Below are positions 18,338 through 60,301 of a DNA stretch of 64,000 nucleotides, piece by piece; the stretch's first letter is position 1, and every line of letters begins with the position of its first letter. The DNA comes from Micromonospora echinofusca. Its GTDB lineage: Bacteria > Actinomycetota > Actinomycetes > Mycobacteriales > Micromonosporaceae. The translations under genes were made by a program, and so were the position numbers. The notes under the pieces are model-generated. The model searched no databases. It was not told the origin of the DNA and was given only the letters and a program-made list of their open reading frames with translations. The stretch is from the NCBI RefSeq assembly GCF_900091445.1, contig NZ_LT607733.1, positions 5,421,001-5,485,000 of the forward strand, given 5' to 3'.

Positions 18338-21300
18338 GTGAGCAAACCCCGAAACCTGAGCCGGCGGACCTCCGCCGCGCTCTTCGCGTCGGTCGTGGCG
18401 GCCAGCGCGGTGACGGTGGCCGGTGGTGCCGCCACCGCGAGCGCCGCACCGACCGCCGCACCCGACGCGTCCCAGGCCACCCCTGTGGAGGCGCTGGGCT
18501 CGCACGACGCCAAGCTCCTCGCCGAGGCGGAGGCGAAGAAGGCCCCGACCGTCACCCTGATCGTGGCCACCAAGAAGGGCGAGGCGCAGGACGTCGCCGC
18601 GGACCTCAAGAACCTGGGCGCGGCCGTCACCGAGCGCTACGACAGCATCGGCTACGTCCTGGCGAAGGTCCCCACCTCGAAGGTGGTCAAGGCGGCCACG
18701 CTGCCCGGCGTCTCCGCCGTCGACCTGGACGAGACCATCCAGCTGCCCGACCCGACGCCCGAGGTCGCCCCCTCCGGCAAGAAGGCCACGAAGCAGGCGG
18801 CGACGCTGCCCGGCCCCGGGGCCGACACCCCGGCCGCCAACCCCTACATGCCGACCAACGAGATCGGCGCCGTCGACTTCGTCGCCAAGAACCCCCAGTG
18901 GGACGGCCGCGGCGTCACGATCGGCATCATGGACTCCGGTGTGGACCTCGGTCACCCGGCGTTGCAGAAGACCACCACGGGTGAGCGGAAGATCGTCGAC
19001 TGGGTGACCGCGACGGACCCGTTCGAGGACGCCACCTGGCGCCCGATGCTCACCGAGGTGACCGGTCCGACGTTCACCTCCGGCGGCGCGACCTGGACGG
19101 CCCCGGCGGGCACCTACCGGTTCAACCGGTTCGCCGAGTCGATCACGGCTGCCAGCGACCCGGCCGGTGACATCAACCGCGACGGGGACCGGACCGACAC
19201 GTTCGGCATCCTCTACGACCCGGCCACCCACAACATCTGGGTGGACGTCAACCAGAACAACGACTTCACCGACGACGCCATGATGCGGCCGTACAAGGAG
19301 AAGTTCGACGTCGGCTACTTCGGCACCGACAACGCGGCCACCCCGGTGGTCGAGCGGATCCCGTTCGTGGTCGAGTACCGCGAGGACGTGGACACCGCCC
19401 CCATCGGCGGTCCCGGCCTGGTGGACTACGTCAACATCGGCATCGTCGAGAGCACCCACGGCACCCACGTCGCCGGCATCACCGCCGCCAACGACATGCT
19501 CGGCAACGGCGCCTTCGACGGTGCCGCGCCCGGCGCCAAGCTCGTCTCGGCCCGCGCCTGCTCCTGGGGCGGCGGCTGCACGTACGCCGCCCTCACCACC
19601 GGCATGGCCGACCTGGTGATCAACCGCAAGGTCGACGTGGTCAACATGTCGATCGGCGGCCTGCCGGCGCTGAACGACGGCAACAACGCCCGCGCCGAGC
19701 TCTACAACAACCTGATCACCACCTACGGCGTGCAGATGTTCATCTCGGCCGGCAACTCCGGCCCGGGCCTGAACACCATCGGCGACCCGTCGGTGGCCGC
19801 CAACGTGGTCAGCGTCGCGGCGAGCATCAGCAAGGACACCTGGCTGGCCAACTACGGCTCCGCGGTGAAGAAGAAGAACGCGCTGTTCAACTTCTCCTCC
19901 CGTGGCCCGCGCGAGGACGGCGGCGTCAAGCCGAACATCGCCGCCCCCGGCTCGGCCATCTCCACCGCCCCGACCTGGCAGCCCGGCAACGCGGTCCCCG
20001 AGGCCGGCTACGCGCTGCCCCCGGGCTACGCGATGCTGAACGGCACCTCGATGGCCTCCCCGCAGGCCGCCGGCGCCGCCGCGCTGCTGCTGTCGGCCGC
20101 CAAGGCGACCGACAAGGGCGTCACCCCGGCCGCGCTGCGCCGGGCGATCTACACCTCGGCCAAGCCGATCGCGGACGTTCCGACGTACGCCCAGGGCTAC
20201 GGCATGTTCAACGTGCCGGGCGCGTGGAAGCTGCTGCGCAAGGGCGTGGAGACGCGCTCCTACACCTCCGAGGCCCCGGTCTGCACCGTCCTGTCCGGTC
20301 AGCTGGGCACCCCGAACCGGGGTACCGGCCTCTACAACCGCTGCGCCTCCACCGAGGGTGGGCAGCGGATCGGCCAGTCGAAGAGCTACCAGGTCAAGCT
20401 GACCCGCACCAGCGGGCCGGCCGGCACCGTGAAGCACAACGTGGGTCTGCGCGGCAACGACGGCACCTTCAAGGCGCCGAAGATCGTCTCGCTCCCGCTG
20501 AACAAGACCGTCACCGTCTCGGTCACCGCCAAGCCCGCCACCGCTGGCGCGCACGGCGCGATCATGACGATCGACGACCCGGCCACCTCGGTCGTCGACT
20601 TCGAGGTCTCCACCGTCGTGGTGGCCTCGAACGACGTGAAGAAGCCGAACTTCTCCTTCTCGGCCGAGGGCTCGGTCGACCGGAACGGCTTCACGTCGTA
20701 CTTCGTGACGGTTCCGCCGGGCACGGGCGCCCTCCAGGTGAACCTCTCCGGCATCGCCACCGGTTCGCAGACCCGGTTCATCGCCTTCAACCCGTACGGC
20801 GTTCCGGTGGAGAGCACCTCCAGCCTCGCCTGCTACACCAACTTCTCCGACGCCAACGCCTGCAAGCCGCAGGAGCGCGACTACCAGAACCCGATCGCCG
20901 GGGTCTGGGAGATCGAGGTGGAGTCCCGTCGGACCTCGCCGTCGCTGAACAACCCGTTCCAGCTCACGGCGCGGGTGCAGGGTGTCGCGGTCGAGCCGGC
21001 CGTGGTCGAGCTGCCGGCGGTCACCGCCGGTACGGCGACCCCGGTGACCTGGTCGCTGACCAACACCTTCGGCCCGGTCGCGGTGACCGGCCAGGGTGGC
21101 CCGCTCTCCAGCGTCCACGCCGAGCGGCCCACCATCGCCGAGGGCGCGTCGCAGGAGTACACCGTGGAGGTGCCGGCGGGCGCGACCCGCTTCACCGCCC
21201 GGATCGGCAACCCGGCCAGCGCCGCGGCCGACCTCGACCTCTACGTCTTCCGCGGTACCGCGGAGGTCGGTCGGGCCGCCGACGGCGACTCCGAGGAGGC

Positions 21301-52906: not shown

Positions 52907-54835
52907 TCAGTCCTTGCGGTCGGGCACGAAGCCCTCGGCGATCCGGTCGAAGTTGGCCAGGTTGGCCTGCCAGTCCTTCGCGGCGACCTCCCAGCGCAGG
53001 GCGTAGCCCCGGTTCTTGGCCGTGACGAAGCCCCGGTTGCGGACGTGGATCCGGGTGCCGTCGCGGGTCTCCAGCCACTCCCAGTCCGCGCAGGTCTTCC
53101 AGAAGCCGTCGCAGCTCGTGATGTCGACGTACTGGTAGCTGTTTACGTACTTCCTGCGATCCGGCTCTTTCTCCTTCCAGTCGGCCAACGCGTCCGACTC
53201 CGGCGTGTTGGTCCACTGGATCAGCAGCTCGCCCACCCCGTTGGGCTCGTCGAAGACGACGGTGTTCTGCCCGGCGTTGCGGCGCACCCAGTTCGCCGGG
53301 ATCGGCAGCGCGAAGCCGGCGGGGTCCTTGTGCAGCTTCCAGCCCGCCGGCAGCGCGTCCGGGGTCGGCGACGGGGTGGCCGACGGCGTCGGGCTCGGCG
53401 CGGCGCTCGTGGGCGGGGCCGGCGCGGAGGACTGCGGCGGCTGCCCCTGCGAGGTCGCCGCGCCGGTCGGGTCGGCCTGCGGTGTGCCGCCGCCGTCCCC
53501 ACCGTCGCCACCGGTCAGCATCGGCACGACCACCACCAGGCCGAGCAACAGCAGCGCCACCAGCACGCCGATCAGCACGTTGCGGCGGGTGTTGTCGGGC
53601 TTCGTACCGTCGGACGCCACGACCGCCGCCCGACCGGACGGCGGGCTCACCGGCGCGGGCATCACCGAGGTGGGATTCGCCGGCTTCCGGGGCGCCGGGT
53701 CGGCCTTCGTGTCGTCGAGCGCCGGCTTGGGCGGGTCGACCTTCGCGGTCGGGGCCGGGTCCGACGTGGAGGCTCCGACCTTGGCCGTCGGCGCGGCGTC
53801 CGAGGAGACCGCCGCCGTGGGGTCCTCGGCGGTGGACGCAGCGGCGGCACCGGCACCGGCCGCCGCCAGGGGCGCACGCGGAGCCGGCGGGCTGACGGGC
53901 CTGTCGGACGCGCCCTCGGCCGGGCGGGGCGCCGGCACCAACGGTGGGCGCGGCTCACGCGGACCGTTCGGCCCCGGCCGGCGTACGCCGTCGAGCAGCG
54001 GGATGGTCCGGGTGCGCTTGCCACCGGCGCGGCGCAGCAGCTTCTCCGCGACCTCGGCGGTGATCCGCTCCTTCGGGTCCTTGCGCAGCAGGCCGTTGAG
54101 CACCGGCTTGAGCGGCCCGGCGTTCTTCGGCGGCGGCATCGGCTCGGTGGCGAGCGCCGCCAGGGTGGCGATCGCCGACGGCCGCGCGTACGGCGACTTG
54201 CCCTCGACCGCCGCGTAGAGGGTGGCGCCCAGCGACCAGAGGTCGGCCTCCGGCCCGGCGGTGCCCTCGCGGGCCCGCTCCGGCGAGATGTACGCGGGCG
54301 ACCCCAGCACCATGCCCGTGCGGGTCACGTTGGGGTCGCCGGGAATCGTGGCGAGACCGAAATCGGTCAGCACCACCCGGCCGTCGTCGCCGAGCAGCAC
54401 GTTCCCGGGCTTGACGTCGCGGTGCATCACGCCGGCCTTGTGCGCCGACTTCAGCGCGGCCAGCACGCCCAGGCCGATCTCCACCGCGCGCGCCGGCGTC
54501 ACGGGGCCGTCCTCGGCGAGCGTGTCCTGCAACGACTTCGACGGCACGTACTCCATGACGATCCACGGGTCGCCGTCGGTACGCAGCACGTCGAAGATGC
54601 GGACCACGTTGATGTGGTTGAGCCGGGCGATGGCGCGGGCCTCGCGCAGCGAGCGCTCCCGCATCTCGCGGCGCTCCTCGTCGGTGAGGCTGGGCGGCGG
54701 GACGAGTTCCTTGATCGCCACGTCCCGGTGCAGCACCTCGTCGCGCGCCTTCCACACCCGACCCATGCCACCCTGACCGAGCGGCGACAGAAGCCGGTAT
54801 CGGTCAGCGACGAGTTGGGGCAGCGCGTTCGACAT
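52907..54835 (-). CDS. Transmembrane Ser/Thr protein kinase (PknB-like)
   Basis: A 642-residue receptor-type kinase. The kinase domain fills residues 12-270: glycine loop LLSPLGQGGMGRVWKA, Lys in DVAIKELV, catalytic loop VMHRDVKPGNVLLG, DFGLA and SPAYISPERARE. A ~130-residue Pro/Ala/Asp-rich linker precedes one membrane helix (VLIGVLVALLLLGLVVVVPM). The exported part has a Gly/Ser/Pro-rich stalk and a ~135-residue domain (PAGWKLHKDPAGFALPIPAN) without PASTA repeats. ATG 54835. It is divergent from accE, 92 bases away. Confidence 0.94.
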   Translation of the reverse strand: MSNALPQLVADRYRLLSPLGQGGMGRVWKARDEVLHRDVAIKELVPPPSLTDEERREMRERSLREARAIARLNHINVVRIFDVLRTDGDPWIVMEYVPSKSLQDTLAEDGPVTPARAVEIGLGVLAALKSAHKAGVMHRDVKPGNVLLGDDGRVVLTDFGLATIPGDPNVTRTGMVLGSPAYISPERAREGTAGPEADLWSLGATLYAAVEGKSPYARPSAIATLAALATEPMPPPKNAGPLKPVLNGLLRKDPKERITAEVAEKLLRRAGGKRTRTIPLLDGVRRPGPNGPREPRPPLVPAPRPAEGASDRPVSPPAPRAPLAAAGAGAAAASTAEDPTAAVSSDAAPTAKVGASTSDPAPTAKVDPPKPALDDTKADPAPRKPANPTSVMPAPVSPPSGRAAVVASDGTKPDNTRRNVLIGVLVALLLLGLVVVVPMLTGGDGGDGGGTPQADPTGAATSQGQPPQSSAPAPPTSAAPSPTPSATPSPTPDALPAGWKLHKDPAGFALPIPANWVRRNAGQNTVVFDEPNGVGELLIQWTNTPESDALADWKEKEPDRRKYVNSYQYVDITSCDGFWKTCADWEWLETRDGTRIHVRNRGFVTAKNRGYALRWEVAAKDWQANLANFDRIAEGFVPDRKD

Positions 54836-54927: not shown

Positions 54928-55134
54928 ATGTCTGCCGAAGAGCCGCTGTTCCGGGTCGTCCGCGGGGTCCCCACCGCCGAGGAACTGGCCGCGCTGGTGG
55001 GCGCGATCGTCGTACGGTCCCGCCCGGCCGCCGCGTCCCCTCCGGTCGCCGCGTCCGCCTGGGCGCGCTCCGGCCGGCCCGCAGCGGCGGTCGCCGGCCC
55101 CGGCGCGTGGCGGGCGTCCGGCCTGCCCCGCTGA
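54928..55134 (+). CDS. accE: Acyl-CoA carboxylase epsilon subunit
   Basis: A 68-residue protein with the AccE pattern: FRVVRGVPTAEELAALVGAI at the start and SAWARSGRP in the middle. Epsilon subunits stabilise the biotin-dependent actinobacterial acyl-CoA carboxylases and normally directly follow accD5. Here it lies 7.2 kb from accD, beyond the sigma, IS and kinase genes. ATG 54928 is the natural start. Identification depends on a short motif, but maf nearby supports it, because accD-accE-maf is the usual mycobacterial order. Confidence 0.83.
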   Translation: MSAEEPLFRVVRGVPTAEELAALVGAIVVRSRPAAASPPVAASAWARSGRPAAAVAGPGAWRASGLPR

Positions 55135-55286: not shown

Positions 55287-55760
55287 ATGATCCCCGAAGA
55301 GGACGGTCCAGCGTCCTGGCTCCGCGGCTACGGCAGCATCGAGGCCGACATCCGCCAGCTCCGCGAGTTCGCCGACAAGCTCCAGGCCGAGGTGGAACGC
55401 AACTACGCCCCGCACCTGTCGTACATCGCCGAGGACATGACCGCACCGGTGCCCAACCCGGCCGACGCGTTCATCGAGCTGGTCAACTTCCTGCGCGCCC
55501 ACCACGAGACCCAGCAGGCCACCGCCGACATGGTCTGGGGTGTCCGCGACGCCACCGGCCACCTGGCCACGGCCGCCGGCACCGTCGCCACCAACTACAC
55601 CGGGTCGGACGCCTTCGCCTCCGCGCGCGTGACCGACGTCGAGCGGGCCCTCGCCAACCCGGCCGCCACGACGCCTCGCGGCGCGCCGCCGGTGCTGCCC
55701 GATCCCACCGGGCCGGAGCCCACGCCGGGGCAGGTGCGGGGTCCGGTGGTGCTGCCATGA
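55287..55760 (+). CDS. Small helical protein, type VII secretion-like
   Basis: A 157-residue, mainly helical protein, first of a three-gene set. DIRQLREFADKLQAEVERNY and AFIELVNFLRAHHETQQATA form two helices; between them SYIAEDM fits the YxxxD/E secretion motif of type VII substrates. The C-terminal ~35 residues are Pro/Gly-rich (PVLPDPTGPEPTPGQVRG). No WxG is visible. ATG 55287 follows GGAGGG. Its stop overlaps the next gene by 4 bases (ATGA). Relation to EsxA-like or PPE-like proteins is inferred from size, helical content, motif and neighbours. Confidence 0.6.
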   Translation: MIPEEDGPASWLRGYGSIEADIRQLREFADKLQAEVERNYAPHLSYIAEDMTAPVPNPADAFIELVNFLRAHHETQQATADMVWGVRDATGHLATAAGTVATNYTGSDAFASARVTDVERALANPAATTPRGAPPVLPDPTGPEPTPGQVRGPVVLP

Positions 55761-57127
55761 TCGAGCGGGGCACCGGCGGCCGCACGTCGGCCCTCACCGA
55801 CTGGCGGCTGATGGACGTCGCCAGCATGTGGGCCTGCCTCCAGGACCACGACACCACCAACCACTGGAAGCAGGTCGCCGGCTGGCGCAAGGTCTGCGAC
55901 CTCGCGCGGGCCCACCTGAGCCGGCTCCAGGAATACCGCAAGGGGCTGGCCGAGGCCTGGCCTCCGCAGAGCAACGAGGCCGCCCGGGCGTACATCCGTG
56001 AGCTGGACGAGCTGATCGACAAGGTGCAGCGCACGCACGACGCCGCCAGCGCCAACTACACCGTGCTCTCCGCCGCCACGCAGGCCATCAGCACCACCCG
56101 CGCGGAGCTCAAGAAGATCTACGAGACGTACGCCGTCAAGGTCCAGGAGAAGCAGACGTACGACGCGACGCTCGCCGACCCGAAGGCAGCCATGGGCAGC
56201 CGGGTCCCCGATCGACCGGTGACCGACGCCGACCTGGAACGACTCAACGTCCAAGCACGCGGCATCATGTACGGCCTCAGCAACGAACTCCAACAGGCCC
56301 AAGTAATGCTCCGCCAACCACCACCCAGACCCAAGGTTGACAACGGGGCGACCGAATCGGGGTTCACCAGTTCGCAGGCCCCGGCAATCCCGCCGATCAT
56401 GCCGGTTCCGATATTGCCAAACGTTGGCACCCCTTCCACACGTCAACCAGGGTCGACGCCCCGACAAGTAACCAGCCCAAGCACACCTGGCCTCGGTCCC
56501 ATTTTGGGCGGAACTGGCACCGGATTGGCACCTCATCCATCAGGCCCTGGCCTACCTACTTCACAGCCTACCGCGCAACCGAATCCATCACCGGGGATCG
56601 GAACCTCAGGGCTTCCGACGGGAGTTTCCCGACCTGGCATATCAGGGCCAGTGAGCAACCAACCAGGTCAAGCTACTCGACCGAATACCGGTTCTGTCCA
56701 GCCCTCCACCCCGCCTTCCACGAACTCACGACCTCTGCCGCATGGCGGCCTAATCGGCGGCACTCCCGGAATCGGATACGGCCCGCCCGGAACAGGAAAC
56801 ACTCAACCGAAGCGAGTCAACCCGATTGGCGGATTAATTGGAGGCGGCGGCGCAGGCACCGCCCCTTCAGGCGGTGCAGGATCTCGCCCAGGTGGCGGAC
56901 GTGGCCTCGCATCCGCCCACGGGATACCCCCGATCGGCGGAACCCCTTTCGGCGCCGCCAACCCAATGCAGGGCCGCCAAGGACATCGCGAACGAGGCGG
57001 CGAGGCCCCCCGACAGTGGGATCCGGAGCACCCCTGGGAAGTCGACCAAGGAGTGCCTCCGGTTGTCCGCCCGCCCAGCGAGGATGGCCCAATCGATCCC
57101 GGCCCAGCAATTGGTTTCAACCGGTGA
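55757..57127 (+). CDS. Helical / Pro-Gly-rich protein, candidate type VII-secreted partner
   Basis: A 456-residue protein coupled to both neighbours by 4-base overlaps. Residues ~15-190 are helical with HWKQVAGWRKVCDLARAHLS and LAEAWPPQSNEAARAYIREL, resembling the WxG/PPE-like helical repeats of actinobacterial type VII substrates. Residues ~195-420 are low-complexity Pro/Gly/Ser/Thr, and the end (HPWEVDQGVPPVV, then DPGPAIGFNR) is a compact motif of unknown function. GC content falls across the second half, and codon 360 is a TTA leucine (56834-56836), rare in such genomes. Function unknown. Confidence 0.62.
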   Translation: MIERGTGGRTSALTDWRLMDVASMWACLQDHDTTNHWKQVAGWRKVCDLARAHLSRLQEYRKGLAEAWPPQSNEAARAYIRELDELIDKVQRTHDAASANYTVLSAATQAISTTRAELKKIYETYAVKVQEKQTYDATLADPKAAMGSRVPDRPVTDADLERLNVQARGIMYGLSNELQQAQVMLRQPPPRPKVDNGATESGFTSSQAPAIPPIMPVPILPNVGTPSTRQPGSTPRQVTSPSTPGLGPILGGTGTGLAPHPSGPGLPTSQPTAQPNPSPGIGTSGLPTGVSRPGISGPVSNQPGQATRPNTGSVQPSTPPSTNSRPLPHGGLIGGTPGIGYGPPGTGNTQPKRVNPIGGLIGGGGAGTAPSGGAGSRPGGGRGLASAHGIPPIGGTPFGAANPMQGRQGHRERGGEAPRQWDPEHPWEVDQGVPPVVRPPSEDGPIDPGPAIGFNR

Positions 57128-58299
57128 TCCTTGGCAATGTCCCGCACTTCGTCGCGATGCTCTCACTATCCTCAGCCCTCGCAACGACCCCCACGCACGT
57201 CGATTCTTCAGTGATCGCGGAGCGGATCAACAATGGCCCGGACATACGTGAGAGTCAGTGGCATTTGAGATATCTGCAAGCGATGACGGCGCATCGACTT
57301 TCTCAGGGGGCAGGAATCACGGTAGCCCTACCCGACACTGGCGTTGATCCACATTCCGACCTTACTCACAATATTTTGCCCGGAATCGACATGGTTCCTG
57401 GCGGAAATGGTGACGGCAGACGGGATCGGAACGGCCACGGCACAGGGATGGCAGGCTTGATCGCGGCGCATGGGGGAATTAATGACAAGGGCGCACTTGG
57501 CATCGCGCCCCAAGCTCAAATTCTACCTATTGTCGACTCACCAGCCGACGGCAACGGCGACCCAGACGTCTTGGCCCAAGCCGTCGAATATGCAATCGAC
57601 AAGGGCGCGGATGTAATCAGCATCTCAAGCGGAGGAGGAACCAGCCCTCGACTGACCCAGGCGGTGAAGAGAGCGCTCGTGTCCGACATCGTCGTAGTTG
57701 CAGGGGCAGGGAATTTCCCCTCTGACCAGAGGGTCGCATACCCGGCGAGCGAGTCTGGCGTCATCGCCGTCGGTGGGATAGACCAGACCGGACGTCATGC
57801 CTCAATCTCAGTGACAGGCCCCGAGATTGATGTGGTAGCCCCCGCCGTCGACATCTACAGCACGAGTCGCGACGGGGGGTATCGCAGAGCGACGGGAACA
57901 TCCGGTGCCACCGCTATCGTTGCCGGAGCCGTCGCGTTGATTAGATCCAAGTACCCGAACCTGCCTGCCTCCGAGGTGGCGCACAGGCTCACGGCTACCG
58001 CGATCGACAAGGGCCCCCCGGGGCGGGACGACGAGTACGGGCACGGGGTCATCGACCTGGTGGCGGCGTTGACTGCTGACGTACCGCCGCTGGGTTTTGG
58101 TTCGGCGACGGCGAGCGCGCCGGCCCCCACCGCCGCGACCACGACGGCGGTAGCGGAGCCGGCGGACGACGGGAACAGTGCGGCGACGGCCCGTGGCCTG
58201 GTCACTCTCGGTGTGATCGTGGCGGCCGGCGGCGCGTGGGCGTTCGTCGCCCGTCGACGTCGTCGGGGTGCCGATCCGCCGCCGCGCATCAGTCGCTGA
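57124..58299 (+). CDS. Mycosin-like membrane-anchored subtilisin (MycP type)
   Basis: A 391-residue S8 peptidase. GTG 57124 overlaps the previous stop (GTGA) and gives a short hydrophobic leader (ILGNVPHFVAMLSLSSALA). The triad is Asp about residue 71 (VALPDTGVDPHSDL), His about 105 (RNGHGTGMAGLIA) and Ser about 260 (TGTSGATAIVAGAVAL), with the oxyanion Asn in VAGAGNFP. A C-terminal membrane helix (LVTLGVIVAAGGAWAFV) ends in RRRRRG. This is the mycosin layout found in ESX type VII systems. GC is low for this genome (62% in 57181-57240, 50% in 57241-57300). Confidence 0.85.
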   Translation: MILGNVPHFVAMLSLSSALATTPTHVDSSVIAERINNGPDIRESQWHLRYLQAMTAHRLSQGAGITVALPDTGVDPHSDLTHNILPGIDMVPGGNGDGRRDRNGHGTGMAGLIAAHGGINDKGALGIAPQAQILPIVDSPADGNGDPDVLAQAVEYAIDKGADVISISSGGGTSPRLTQAVKRALVSDIVVVAGAGNFPSDQRVAYPASESGVIAVGGIDQTGRHASISVTGPEIDVVAPAVDIYSTSRDGGYRRATGTSGATAIVAGAVALIRSKYPNLPASEVAHRLTATAIDKGPPGRDDEYGHGVIDLVAALTADVPPLGFGSATASAPAPTAATTTAVAEPADDGNSAATARGLVTLGVIVAAGGAWAFVARRRRRGADPPPRISR

Positions 58300-58408: not shown

Positions 58409-59065
58409 GTGCCGAAGTCCTTGCCGCTCCGCCTCGTGCTCGCGTCCGCCAGCCCTGCCCGCCGCAAGATTCTCCAGGCCGCCGGGATCGAGACGGACGT
58501 GCTGGTCAGCGGCGTCGACGAATCCCTCGTGGTCACCGAACGGGCCGAGGAACTCTGCCTGGAGTTGGCCCGGATGAAGGCGCAGGCCGTGCTCACCCGG
58601 CTGGGGCCGGCCGACGACCAGCGGACGCTGGTGATCGGCTGCGACTCGGTGCTGGCCTTCGACGGGGAGATCCTCGGCAAGCCGACCGACGCGGCGGACG
58701 CCACCCGGCGCTGGAAGCGGATGCGCGGGCGCAGCGGTGTGCTGCACAGCGGGCACTGCCTGATCGACGTCGAGGCCGGGCGGCGGGCCGAGGCGGTCGC
58801 GTCGACCGTGGTGCACTTCGCCGACGTCAGCGACGACGAGATCGCCACGTACGTGGGCACGGGCGAGCCACTGGCCGTGGCGGGGGCCTTCACGATCGAC
58901 GGCCTGGGCGGTCCCTTCGTGGAGCGGATCGAGGGTGATCCGAGCACGGTCATCGGGCTCAGCCTGCCGATGCTGCGCCGCCTTCTCGCCGAACTGGAAA
59001 TCCCGATCACGGATCTGTGGACGAAGATCGCGCCCGGCAGTCAGACCGTCGAACTGCTCGGCTAG
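58409..59065 (+). CDS. maf: Maf nucleotide pyrophosphatase
   Basis: A 218-residue Maf/YceF-type nucleoside triphosphate pyrophosphatase, which hydrolyses non-canonical or surplus nucleotides. Family landmarks: the starting LPLRLVLASASPARRKILQ, the acidic TLVIGCDSVLAFDGEILGKP, GRSGVLHSGHCLI and AGAFTIDGLGGPFVERIEGD. GC is back to normal here. In mycobacteria it follows accE directly; here the mycosin cassette intervenes. It is followed by a TnpB-only element. Confidence 0.93.
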   Translation: MPKSLPLRLVLASASPARRKILQAAGIETDVLVSGVDESLVVTERAEELCLELARMKAQAVLTRLGPADDQRTLVIGCDSVLAFDGEILGKPTDAADATRRWKRMRGRSGVLHSGHCLIDVEAGRRAEAVASTVVHFADVSDDEIATYVGTGEPLAVAGAFTIDGLGGPFVERIEGDPSTVIGLSLPMLRRLLAELEIPITDLWTKIAPGSQTVELLG

Positions 59066-59085: not shown

Positions 59086-59105
59086 CCCACGCCTAGAGGC
59101 GGGGG
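59086..59105 (-). repeat. Right-end hairpin of the TnpB element
   Basis: The stem GCCT-AG-AGGC is extended by C-G pairs with one A-G mismatch. It lies immediately 3' of the TnpB stop on the coding strand, where the 3' end of the omega-RNA of TnpB elements is formed. It mirrors the hairpin at 60417-60436. Confidence 0.65.
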
Positions 59106-60301
59106 ATTCCAGCGGTCGCCCGCTGGGTTTCCTGCTTCACCGACGACCGCCCCGTCCGGACGTTCGTCCGTTGAGGTCTTATACCGCCTCCACAGGCAAT
59201 CACGGAGAGCCCCTCCGCGAGAATGTTGCGGGCCGCGTTGACGTCGCGGTCGTGGACAGTGCCGCATCGGCAGGTCCACGACCGCATGTTAAGCGGCATC
59301 CGCTCAGCGAGCGCACCGCACGCCGAGCACAGTTTGGACGACGGGAACCAGCGGTCCACAACCACGAGGTTGCGGCCGTGCCAGTCGGCCTTGTATTCGA
59401 GCAGGGTGCGGAACTGCCGCCAAGCCGCGTCGCTGATGGCGCGGGCCAGGCTGTGGTTTGTGACCATGTTGCGCACGGTCAGGTCCTCGACGACGATCGT
59501 TTGGTTCTCACGAACGAGCCGAGTGGTCAACTTGTGCAGATGGTCCCGCCTGCGGTCGGTGATCCGGGCGTGCACGCGGGCGACCTTGAGTCGGGCCTTG
59601 GCCCGGTTCGCGGAGCCCGTCTCCTTCTTGGCCAGGTTCCGCTGCGCCTTGGCGAGTGCGGCCCGGTCGCGGCGCTCATGCTTCGGGTTGACGACTTTCT
59701 CACCGGTGGACAGCGTGAGCAGGCTGTCCAGGCCGGCATCGACCCCGACGGCCGGGCTCGGCGCCGGAGCCTGCTCGATCCGGTCGTCGCACAGCAGCGA
59801 CACGAACCAGCGACCGGCCGCGTCCTGCGACACGGTCACCGTGGACGGCTTCGCGCCCTCGGGAAGCGGCCGGGACCACACAATGTTCAGCGGCTCGGCC
59901 ATCTTCGCCAGGGTGAGCCGGCCGTCGCGGTAGCGGAACCCGCTGGTGGTGTACTCCGCCGACCGGCGCGACTTCTTCTTGCTCTTGAAGCTCGGGTACC
60001 GGGCTCGTTTGGCGAAGAAGTTGGTGAACGCGAATTGCAGGTGCCGCAGGGCCTGCTGCAACGGCACGGCCGACACCTCGTTGAGGAACGCCAGGTCGTC
60101 AGTTTTCTTCCACGCGGTCAGCATCGACGACGTCGCGTTGTAGTTCACCCGTTCTTGGCGCAGCGTCCACGCCTCGGTGCGGGCCTGCAACCCCATGTTG
60201 TAGACCAGCCGGACACACCCGAACGTGCGGGCAAGCTCGCAAGCCTGCTCGGAGCTCGGGTAGAAGCGGAACCTGAACGCCCGTTTCACAGCCCTGGCCA
60301 T
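59093..60301 (-). CDS. tnpB: TnpB family RNA-guided nuclease (IS200/IS605-type accessory protein)
   Basis: A 402-residue TnpB-type protein, the transposon-borne ancestor group of Cas12. An N-terminal helix-turn-helix region (FYPSSEQACELARTFGCVR) leads into the OrfB core. RuvC-like residues are Asp in GVDAGLDSLLTL, Glu in IVVEDLTVRNM and Asp in VHDRDVNAARNI. The zinc finger is CSACG and CRCG. Full length with intact catalytic residues. No TnpA gene is adjacent. The stop codon lies inside the right-end hairpin region. ATG 60301. It is opposite in direction to maf and to the O-methyltransferase. Confidence 0.93.
   Translation of the reverse strand: MARAVKRAFRFRFYPSSEQACELARTFGCVRLVYNMGLQARTEAWTLRQERVNYNATSSMLTAWKKTDDLAFLNEVSAVPLQQALRHLQFAFTNFFAKRARYPSFKSKKKSRRSAEYTTSGFRYRDGRLTLAKMAEPLNIVWSRPLPEGAKPSTVTVSQDAAGRWFVSLLCDDRIEQAPAPSPAVGVDAGLDSLLTLSTGEKVVNPKHERRDRAALAKAQRNLAKKETGSANRAKARLKVARVHARITDRRRDHLHKLTTRLVRENQTIVVEDLTVRNMVTNHSLARAISDAAWRQFRTLLEYKADWHGRNLVVVDRWFPSSKLCSACGALAERMPLNMRSWTCRCGTVHDRDVNAARNILAEGLSVIACGGGIRPQRTNVRTGRSSVKQETQRATAGIPRL

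Follow-up and report, generated by a model that had tools for sequence, protein, structure and literature searches.

The cassette between accE and maf

The 64,000-nt window analysed here (positions 5,421,001–5,485,000 of NZ_LT607733.1, assembly GCF_900091445.1) comes from the soil bacterium Micromonospora echinofusca and contains, between accE and maf, a cassette of three overlapping genes on one strand (Table 1). An earlier note, made from the sequence alone, had read this trio as a type VII secretion-like cassette encoding a small helical protein (gene 1), a helical protein rich in proline and glycine (gene 2) and a mycosin-like protease (gene 3). Family matches confirm both flanks, as PF13822 and PF02545, and the 4-base overlaps it described are present: ATGA (55757–55760) between genes 1 and 2, and GTGA (57124–57127) between genes 2 and 3. 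The first recurs in 75 and the second in 54 of the 77 Micromonospora loci measured.

Gene 3 matches TIGR03921 at 280.9 bits, just above the cut-off of 278.75, and carries the catalytic residues D71, H105 and S260, with Asn197 also there, in agreement with the mycosin assignment and triad of the earlier note. Among well-formed loci (73 of 78 complete sets, those with out-of-range lengths being excluded, as in the co-variation analysis below), narrow patterns found the Ser motif in all 73, the His motif in 70 and the Asp motif in 66. A hydrophobic stretch from residue 358, followed by arginines, lies at the C-terminus. By a simple calculation, without a dedicated predictor, hydropathy is 1.55 at the N-terminus and 1.97 at the C-terminus, and 58 and 53 of 75 relatives, respectively, exceed simple thresholds there. 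The M. echinofusca genome encodes four mycosins above the TIGR03921 cut-off and one just below it.

Six solved PPE entries top the structural match list for the helical domain of gene 2, which aligns to PPE41, PPE15 and PPE4 over 160–168 residues at 10–16% identity. This supports the type VII character and the substrate-like helical partners that had been proposed. The Pfam PPE family matched neither gene 2 nor 39 relatives, and a gene-2 profile run against the sequences of solved structures returned chance-like rows only. EspB was not among the structural matches listed, which excludes nothing. The AWPPQSNEAA turn singled out in the earlier note falls at the WxG-like position, where all 57 relatives have the tryptophan.

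Gene 1 was modelled weakly (mean predicted local distance difference test score 68.6), with helices at residues 16–50, 58–85 and 87–103. It belongs to no Pfam or NCBIfam family, 40 members scanned gave no Pfam match to PE or EspC, a structural search with the weak model gave no PE match, and its profile run against the sequences of solved structures again gave chance-like rows. The fold check suggested in the earlier note thus gave PPE matches for gene 2 and no PE match for gene 1, which is the likely small partner of gene 2. In ESX substrates the general export signal, YxxxD/E, sits after the last long helix. In gene 1 that place is taken by Y104xxxD108. Both residues are invariant across an alignment of 61 relatives, drawn from the genus, from other genera and from ESX-embedded copies and collected with a profile that itself contains these columns. 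Because it is conserved and follows the helices, Y104xxxD108 is the probable export signal. The motif singled out in the earlier note, SYIAED, is present but is a feature of the genus; its tyrosine occurs in only 18 of the 61 relatives, and it is not favoured as the signal.

A hypervariable block spans the gene-2 tail and the front of the mycosin

The strongest feature of the cassette is invisible from one sequence. Micromonospora species that are 94–100% identical around a sharply bounded block are mostly 40–50% identical in the gene-2 tail and 63–80% in the mycosin within it. In eight profiled pairs, DNA identity stays at 0.88–1.00 up to about base 950 of the cassette. Six pairs then drop to ~0.37–0.73 in most windows between bases 1100 and 2450 and return to 0.85–0.95 at 2600–2900, while the other two have a common allele; some pairs show a further dip between the mycosin and maf. 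At the protein level, 49 close pairs with unlike alleles, representing 40 loci, are 0.87–0.99 identical in gene 2 up to about residue 188–190 and mostly 0.14–0.62 beyond ~190, except for two conserved islands (residues 351–377 and 421–456). Their mycosins are 0.12–0.85 identical up to about residue 230 and mostly 0.82–1.00 thereafter.

The same contrast is found between proteins of one species, with names taken as in the records. Identities of N-domain and tail are 1.00 and 0.46 in M. musae, 0.99 and 0.50 in M. globbae, 0.97–0.99 and 0.47–0.54 in M. zamorensis, 0.98 and 0.50 in M. arborensis, 0.98 and 0.54 in M. chokoriensis, 0.98 and 0.58 in M. purpureochromogenes, and 0.96 and 0.56 in M. echinaurantiaca. 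At 60% identity, 73 loci fall into 53 tail classes. The G+C content (GC) of the block in M. echinofusca is 0.621, against 0.704 before and 0.711 after it; the means are 0.624 for the block and 0.707 for the flanks, and the block is the lower in 76 of 77 loci. Polymorphic alleles between conserved flanks, as found here, are one feature expected of recognition or mating-identity loci. In genus g29, five genomes (four loci plus L149) gave no equally sharp block; there the tail is variable and the two mycosin halves differ little.

Tail and protease vary together

With gene 1, the gene-2 domain and maf controlled for, variation in the tail correlates with that in the mycosin front half (partial r 0.37, 0 of 500 permutations) and not with that in the back half (0.02, 199 of 500). 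Weaker residual correlations link the tail to gene 1 (0.15, 6 of 500) and to the gene-2 domain (0.14, 14 of 500), and the mycosin front half to gene 1 (0.20, 1 of 500). Among 112 close pairs, 13 have a common tail and 7 a common mycosin front half, and all 7 are within those 13.

As a control we used the ESX cluster at 5.80 Mb (locus A, described below) in the 11 closest pairs of 12 genomes. There the locus-A mycosins are 0.91–0.98 and the PPE_A2 tails 0.80–0.95 identical, whereas in 10 of the same 11 pairs the trio has tails at 0.40–0.50 and mycosins at 0.66–0.72, the remaining pair having a common allele (0.78 and 0.90). Over more distant pairs locus A likewise diverges; the mean MycPA1 identity over 51 pairs is just 0.745, because two locus-A variants are mixed, so that only the 11 closest pairs serve as a clean control. 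Three genomes alone (G000, G233 and G293) yielded PE_A1, and PPE_A1 is missing in G229; elsewhere the PPE_A1 query apparently landed on PPE_A2, as the equal lengths indicate, and the PPE_A1 columns are not an independent control.

In two close pairs, synonymous divergence (dS) reaches 1.8–2.5 for the tail; for the mycosin it is 2.4 or saturated over the front half and 0.26–0.34 over the back half, against 0.05–0.13 in gene 1, the gene-2 domain and maf. Between shared alleles, omega (the ratio of non-synonymous divergence, dN, to dS) in the block is 0.12–0.27. The block alleles are therefore old, under purifying selection, and exchanged or maintained rather than freshly mutated. Rapid hypermutation is not favoured as their source, dS being raised along with dN.

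Distribution and loss of the trio

At E ≤ 0.001, gene 1 is matched in 243 of the 300 family genomes sampled, in 103 of 106 from the genus and in 33 of 44 genera, the weaker matches including copies at other places. All five genes from accE to maf were found in 77 of 80 named loci, and in the other three the contig ends. With matches in nearly every genome of the genus and this constancy of gene order, the trio is kept together far more than chance would allow. The comparison of the locus across Micromonosporaceae that the earlier note called for thus shows the cassette maintained in the genus. Beyond it, 40 regions of 32 genomes from other genera include 17 with all five genes (two rearranged) and five with an incomplete set, of which four lie at contig ends and one lacks accE; the rest have the trio beside EccC (five), the trio elsewhere (nine) or gene 1 without the trio (four). 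A sixth EccC-linked trio is at L185. At L157 and L158, from two genera, the trio is rearranged, with gene 2 and the mycosin gene before gene 1, followed by accE and maf.

Twenty genomes without the trio have accE and maf frames within ~600 bases (10 genomes) or further apart (three), or accE was not found (seven). In two members of the genus, with genomes of 5.1 and 5.2 Mb, genes 1 and 3 are undetected and the space between accE and maf still contains a gene-2 relic, indicating that the trio was lost. In G273, the third genus member without a match, maf lies 61 bases from the contig start, and the absence may reflect an assembly gap. Carriage as plasmid or phage cargo was considered and rejected: the gene-2 domain had 0 matches in 72,556 plasmid records and gene 1 had 0 in 50,697 phage records.

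Association with a probably scattered type-B ESX system

The earlier note had suggested a minimal, possibly stand-alone module, as EccB-, EccC-, EccD- and EccE-like genes are absent from the window. A stand-alone module is rejected, since core genes are found elsewhere on the same chromosome: EccC loci and EccB genes (two of each), EccD genes and WXG100 pairs. Relatives of the trio lie beside EccC in the six other-genera regions mentioned above. Locus A (5.80 Mb) comprises EccB, EccC, EccD, WXG100 genes, two PE/PPE-like pairs and two mycosins; its set of EccB, EccC, EccD, WXG100 pair and mycosin is complete (EccE was not searched for). Locus B (6.86 Mb) comprises EccD, EccC and one mycosin. 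The locus-A PPE-like proteins end in other Trp/acidic motifs, TWLEEDEDVWG (L033, 8297–9634, minus strand) and TWLTEDDMVWG (L034, 3391–4656, plus strand), perhaps the counterpart of the gene-2 end WDPxHPWE...DPGPAIG.

EccC trees, from quick searches and with several weak forks, put A and B in different groups. Since EccC is present in all 300 family genomes, it is the EccC type, not its presence, that separates genomes. Type-B EccC is present in each of the 18 gene-1-bearing single-EccC genomes examined; others, such as G089, G100 and G262, were left out of the tree. Of five single-EccC genomes without gene 1, three fall in another group, G290 in the sister group and G038 at the base of B. The top EccC of placed trio genomes is type B except in G031, which has a separate EccC hit at 76% over residues 34–910, and G005 (69% complete), with none above 59%; G114 was placed by a sister-type copy and has a separate hit at 68% over residues 336–1320. 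Type-B EccC occurs without a found trio in G027, G033, G038, the placed genomes of g44 and those of g34 except G114. The trio thus tracks type-B EccC, and the converse fails. In genus g34, the type-B EccC of L290, L291, L292 and L294, where the trio was not found, sits on long branches, and G114 keeps the trio; the branches look as if constraint had changed after trio loss.

In 14 of 14 annotated type-B core loci (M. echinofusca and 13 others), EccD, EccC and a mycosin are the sole ESX genes found in 15–20 kb; the mycosin follows EccC at 12 of these loci and EccD at the other two. M. echinofusca has a second EccB, at 3.60 Mb, with no further ESX gene found in the surrounding 19.5 kb. It is 38–81% identical (229–644 bits) to the EccB at 13 loci of 12 single-EccC genomes (that of G129, L350, was missed by the gene caller), whereas the locus-A EccB, compared for contrast, reaches 31–37% (139–207 bits). 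Of the 14 other EccB regions, eight have WXG100-like genes together with a mycosin close to EccB, and in six none were found; the matching WXG100 pair and mycosin of M. echinofusca are at 6.00 Mb. The type-B system of M. echinofusca is thus probably spread over 3.60, 5.48, 6.00 and 6.86 Mb.

A sister type is compact. At L249, EccC, EccD, EccB, two WXG100-like genes, relatives of genes 1 and 2 and mycosins all lie within 20 kb; L250 is the same except that the gene-2 relative was undetected. The mycosin tree groups by neighbour, into Esx-linked (support 98), EccC-linked (99) and PPE-linked (weak forks, 85–87) mycosins, and each group includes a sister-type member. From this we infer that a compact cluster broke up, each piece keeping a mycosin except the lone EccB. 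In the M. echinofusca genome, two 390-aa open frames with equal EccC-model scores, possibly a duplication, lie ~13 kb apart (C1:6976931-6977359 and C1:6990066-6990494).

Neighbouring genes and coordinates

Directly after maf is an IS605 OrfB/TnpB-type gene (59093–60301, minus strand; PF01385, PF07282, PF12323), at which DNA identity to the close relative L059 drops, fitting an insertion in the M. echinofusca genome. Upstream of accE, on the opposite strand, is a serine/threonine protein kinase gene (52907–54835, minus strand; PF00069, E 2e-46). Another subtilase-family match in the window lies at 18905–20203 (plus strand), in an open frame of 1143 aa.

Table 1. Features of the cassette and its flanks, in coordinates of the window.
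Feature	Coordinates	Strand	Evidence
accE, upstream flank	54928..55134	+	PF13822, E 9e-12
Gene 1, small helical protein, likely PE-like partner, 157 aa	55287..55760	+	Relatives family-wide; without Pfam/NCBIfam family
YIAED (Y46–D50) of gene 1, not conserved beyond the genus	55422..55436	+	Y 18/61, D 31/61
Probable type VII export signal Y104-x3-D108 of gene 1	55596..55610	+	Y, D in 61/61 aligned relatives
Gene 2, probable PPE-like fold followed by a long tail rich in Pro and Gly, 456 aa	55757..57127	+	
W68-P69-P70 turn of gene 2, WxG-like position	55958..55966	+	W 57/57 relatives; WPP 41/57
Hypervariable block: gene-2 tail (from ~residue 188) and mycosin residues 1 to ~235	56318..57828	+	Identity profiles, GC
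Conserved tail island of gene 2, residues 351–377	56807..56887	+	Mean identity 0.77–0.93, 49 close pairs with unlike alleles
Conserved gene-2 C-terminal end, residues 421–456, WDPxHPWE...DPGPAIG	57017..57124	+	Mean identity 0.70–0.80, 49 close pairs
Gene 3, mycosin, subtilisin-like serine protease, 391 aa, GTG start	57124..58299	+	TIGR03921, D71/H105/S260
Conserved mycosin back part: Ser motif and probable C-terminal membrane anchor	57829..58299	+	Identity mostly 0.82–1.00, 0.72 at 341–350, 49 close pairs
maf, downstream flank	58409..59065	+	PF02545, E 7e-56

Discussion

We propose, with a probability of about one half, that the cassette represents a module of a type VII (ESX) system, detached from it and made up of a substrate and its protease, with tail and protease matched and exchanged together. 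In a PE/PPE-like complex, gene 1 would pair with the helical domain of gene 2, and judging from the conservation and position of Y104xxxD108, the pair may be exported by this signal of gene 1. The observed co-occurrence points to the type-B translocon as the route, and the pair would physically use EccC/EccD, EccB and WXG100 proteins encoded at three other places. Outside the membrane, the presumably anchored mycosin may then trim the disordered gene-2 tail, by analogy with MycP1, the ESX-1 protease that reportedly processes the tail of EspB. The tail and the protease front half (with Asp71, His105 and probably much of the cleft), observed as one co-varying block, would be swapped as a matched allele between near-identical strains, the match being presumably functional and the diversity presumably selected. 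Cell-cell recognition, phage escape or another pressure could possibly favour such diversity. A bolder and rather doubtful extension makes the trio an identity determinant: each strain would export its own tail, trimmed only by the matched mycosin half, and neighbours would be recognised by compatible tails, in kin discrimination or the control of DNA exchange, with rare alleles favoured and old alleles persisting across species.

The case for functional coupling is that the border recurs inside the mycosin; weighing against it, the coupling of tail and front half could come from linkage alone. The two parts are contiguous, and surface diversity typically shows itself as deep allelic divergence with flanks that stay conserved, as would be expected if phages or predators attacked an exposed tail, new tails were favoured and the protease half hitchhiked on the recombination tract, with no match needed. 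We hold this to be unlikely if plausible, as the block ends at the same mycosin place in many species pairs, two tail islands are conserved, and hitchhiking alone leaves the border at the protease front half unexplained. Nor is a neutral recombination hot spot, importing foreign DNA without selection for recognition or matching, probable: the block is low in GC, and dS is raised as well as dN, as distant donors would leave it, yet the Ser and His motifs are retained, as are the tail islands, shared alleles differ with a low omega, and the borders recur in the 49 close pairs from 40 loci.

Mycosins reportedly help to stabilise ESX membrane complexes independently of proteolysis, and with several in this genome, the one in the cassette might chiefly have a structural role in the secretion complex, gene 2 being a plain member of an ESX substrate pair and not a protease substrate. 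This we consider improbable, given the constancy of the Ser and His motifs and the restriction of co-variation with the tail to the front half. The least probable account is that the trio serves locus A, the sole complete cluster in the genome and only ~0.32 Mb away, or functions independently of an ESX core. Against it, PE/PPE-like pairs are already present in locus A itself, the examined single-EccC genomes with gene 1 are all type B and hence without type A, and all 300 family genomes have EccC.

The trio makes it testable what mycosins cut, whether there is one mycosin per substrate, and whether ESX-4-like systems act between cells, and its natural set of tail and protease alleles (53 tail classes in 73 loci) offers a specificity experiment already laid out by nature. 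Specialists should be surprised that proteins of one named species can combine near-identical N-domains with unlike tails, and that the border lies inside a protease gene. The scattered layout also means that a search limited to ESX clusters can miss parts or substrates of working systems.

Newton-Foot et al. (2016; PMC4791881) describe an ESX-4 set of EccB, EccC, EccD, mycosin and a WXG100 pair, found in Micromonosporales and often rearranged outside the mycolic-acid bacteria. The type-B parts are this same set. Unlike ESX-4 and ESX-4EVOL clusters, the type-B parts probably occupy four places, include several mycosins, and have gained a PE/PPE-like pair with its own mycosin and alleles; the comparison is one of gene content. 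The trio resembles PE25-PPE41, PE8-PPE15 and PE5-PPE4 in the helical alignment of gene 2, the small partner gene upstream and the YxxxD of that partner, and differs from mycobacterial PE/PPE proteins in its 10–16% identity, the lack of a Pfam PPE or PE match, and W-P-P in place of WxG in most relatives. Like EspB and MycP1, it couples a mycosin with a neighbour made of PPE-type helices and a disordered tail, with suggested processing of the tail, but uses two chains where EspB is one. Similar to the block in pattern is the mating-identity (mid) region of M. smegmatis esx1, for which Gray et al. (2013; PMC3706393) give low identity between strains, conserved surroundings and a border inside a gene (the N-terminal two-thirds of 0071). 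Both are ESX-linked stretches of low identity with such a border and such surroundings; mid consists of other genes, lies inside an ESX locus and has a mating role shown by crosses.

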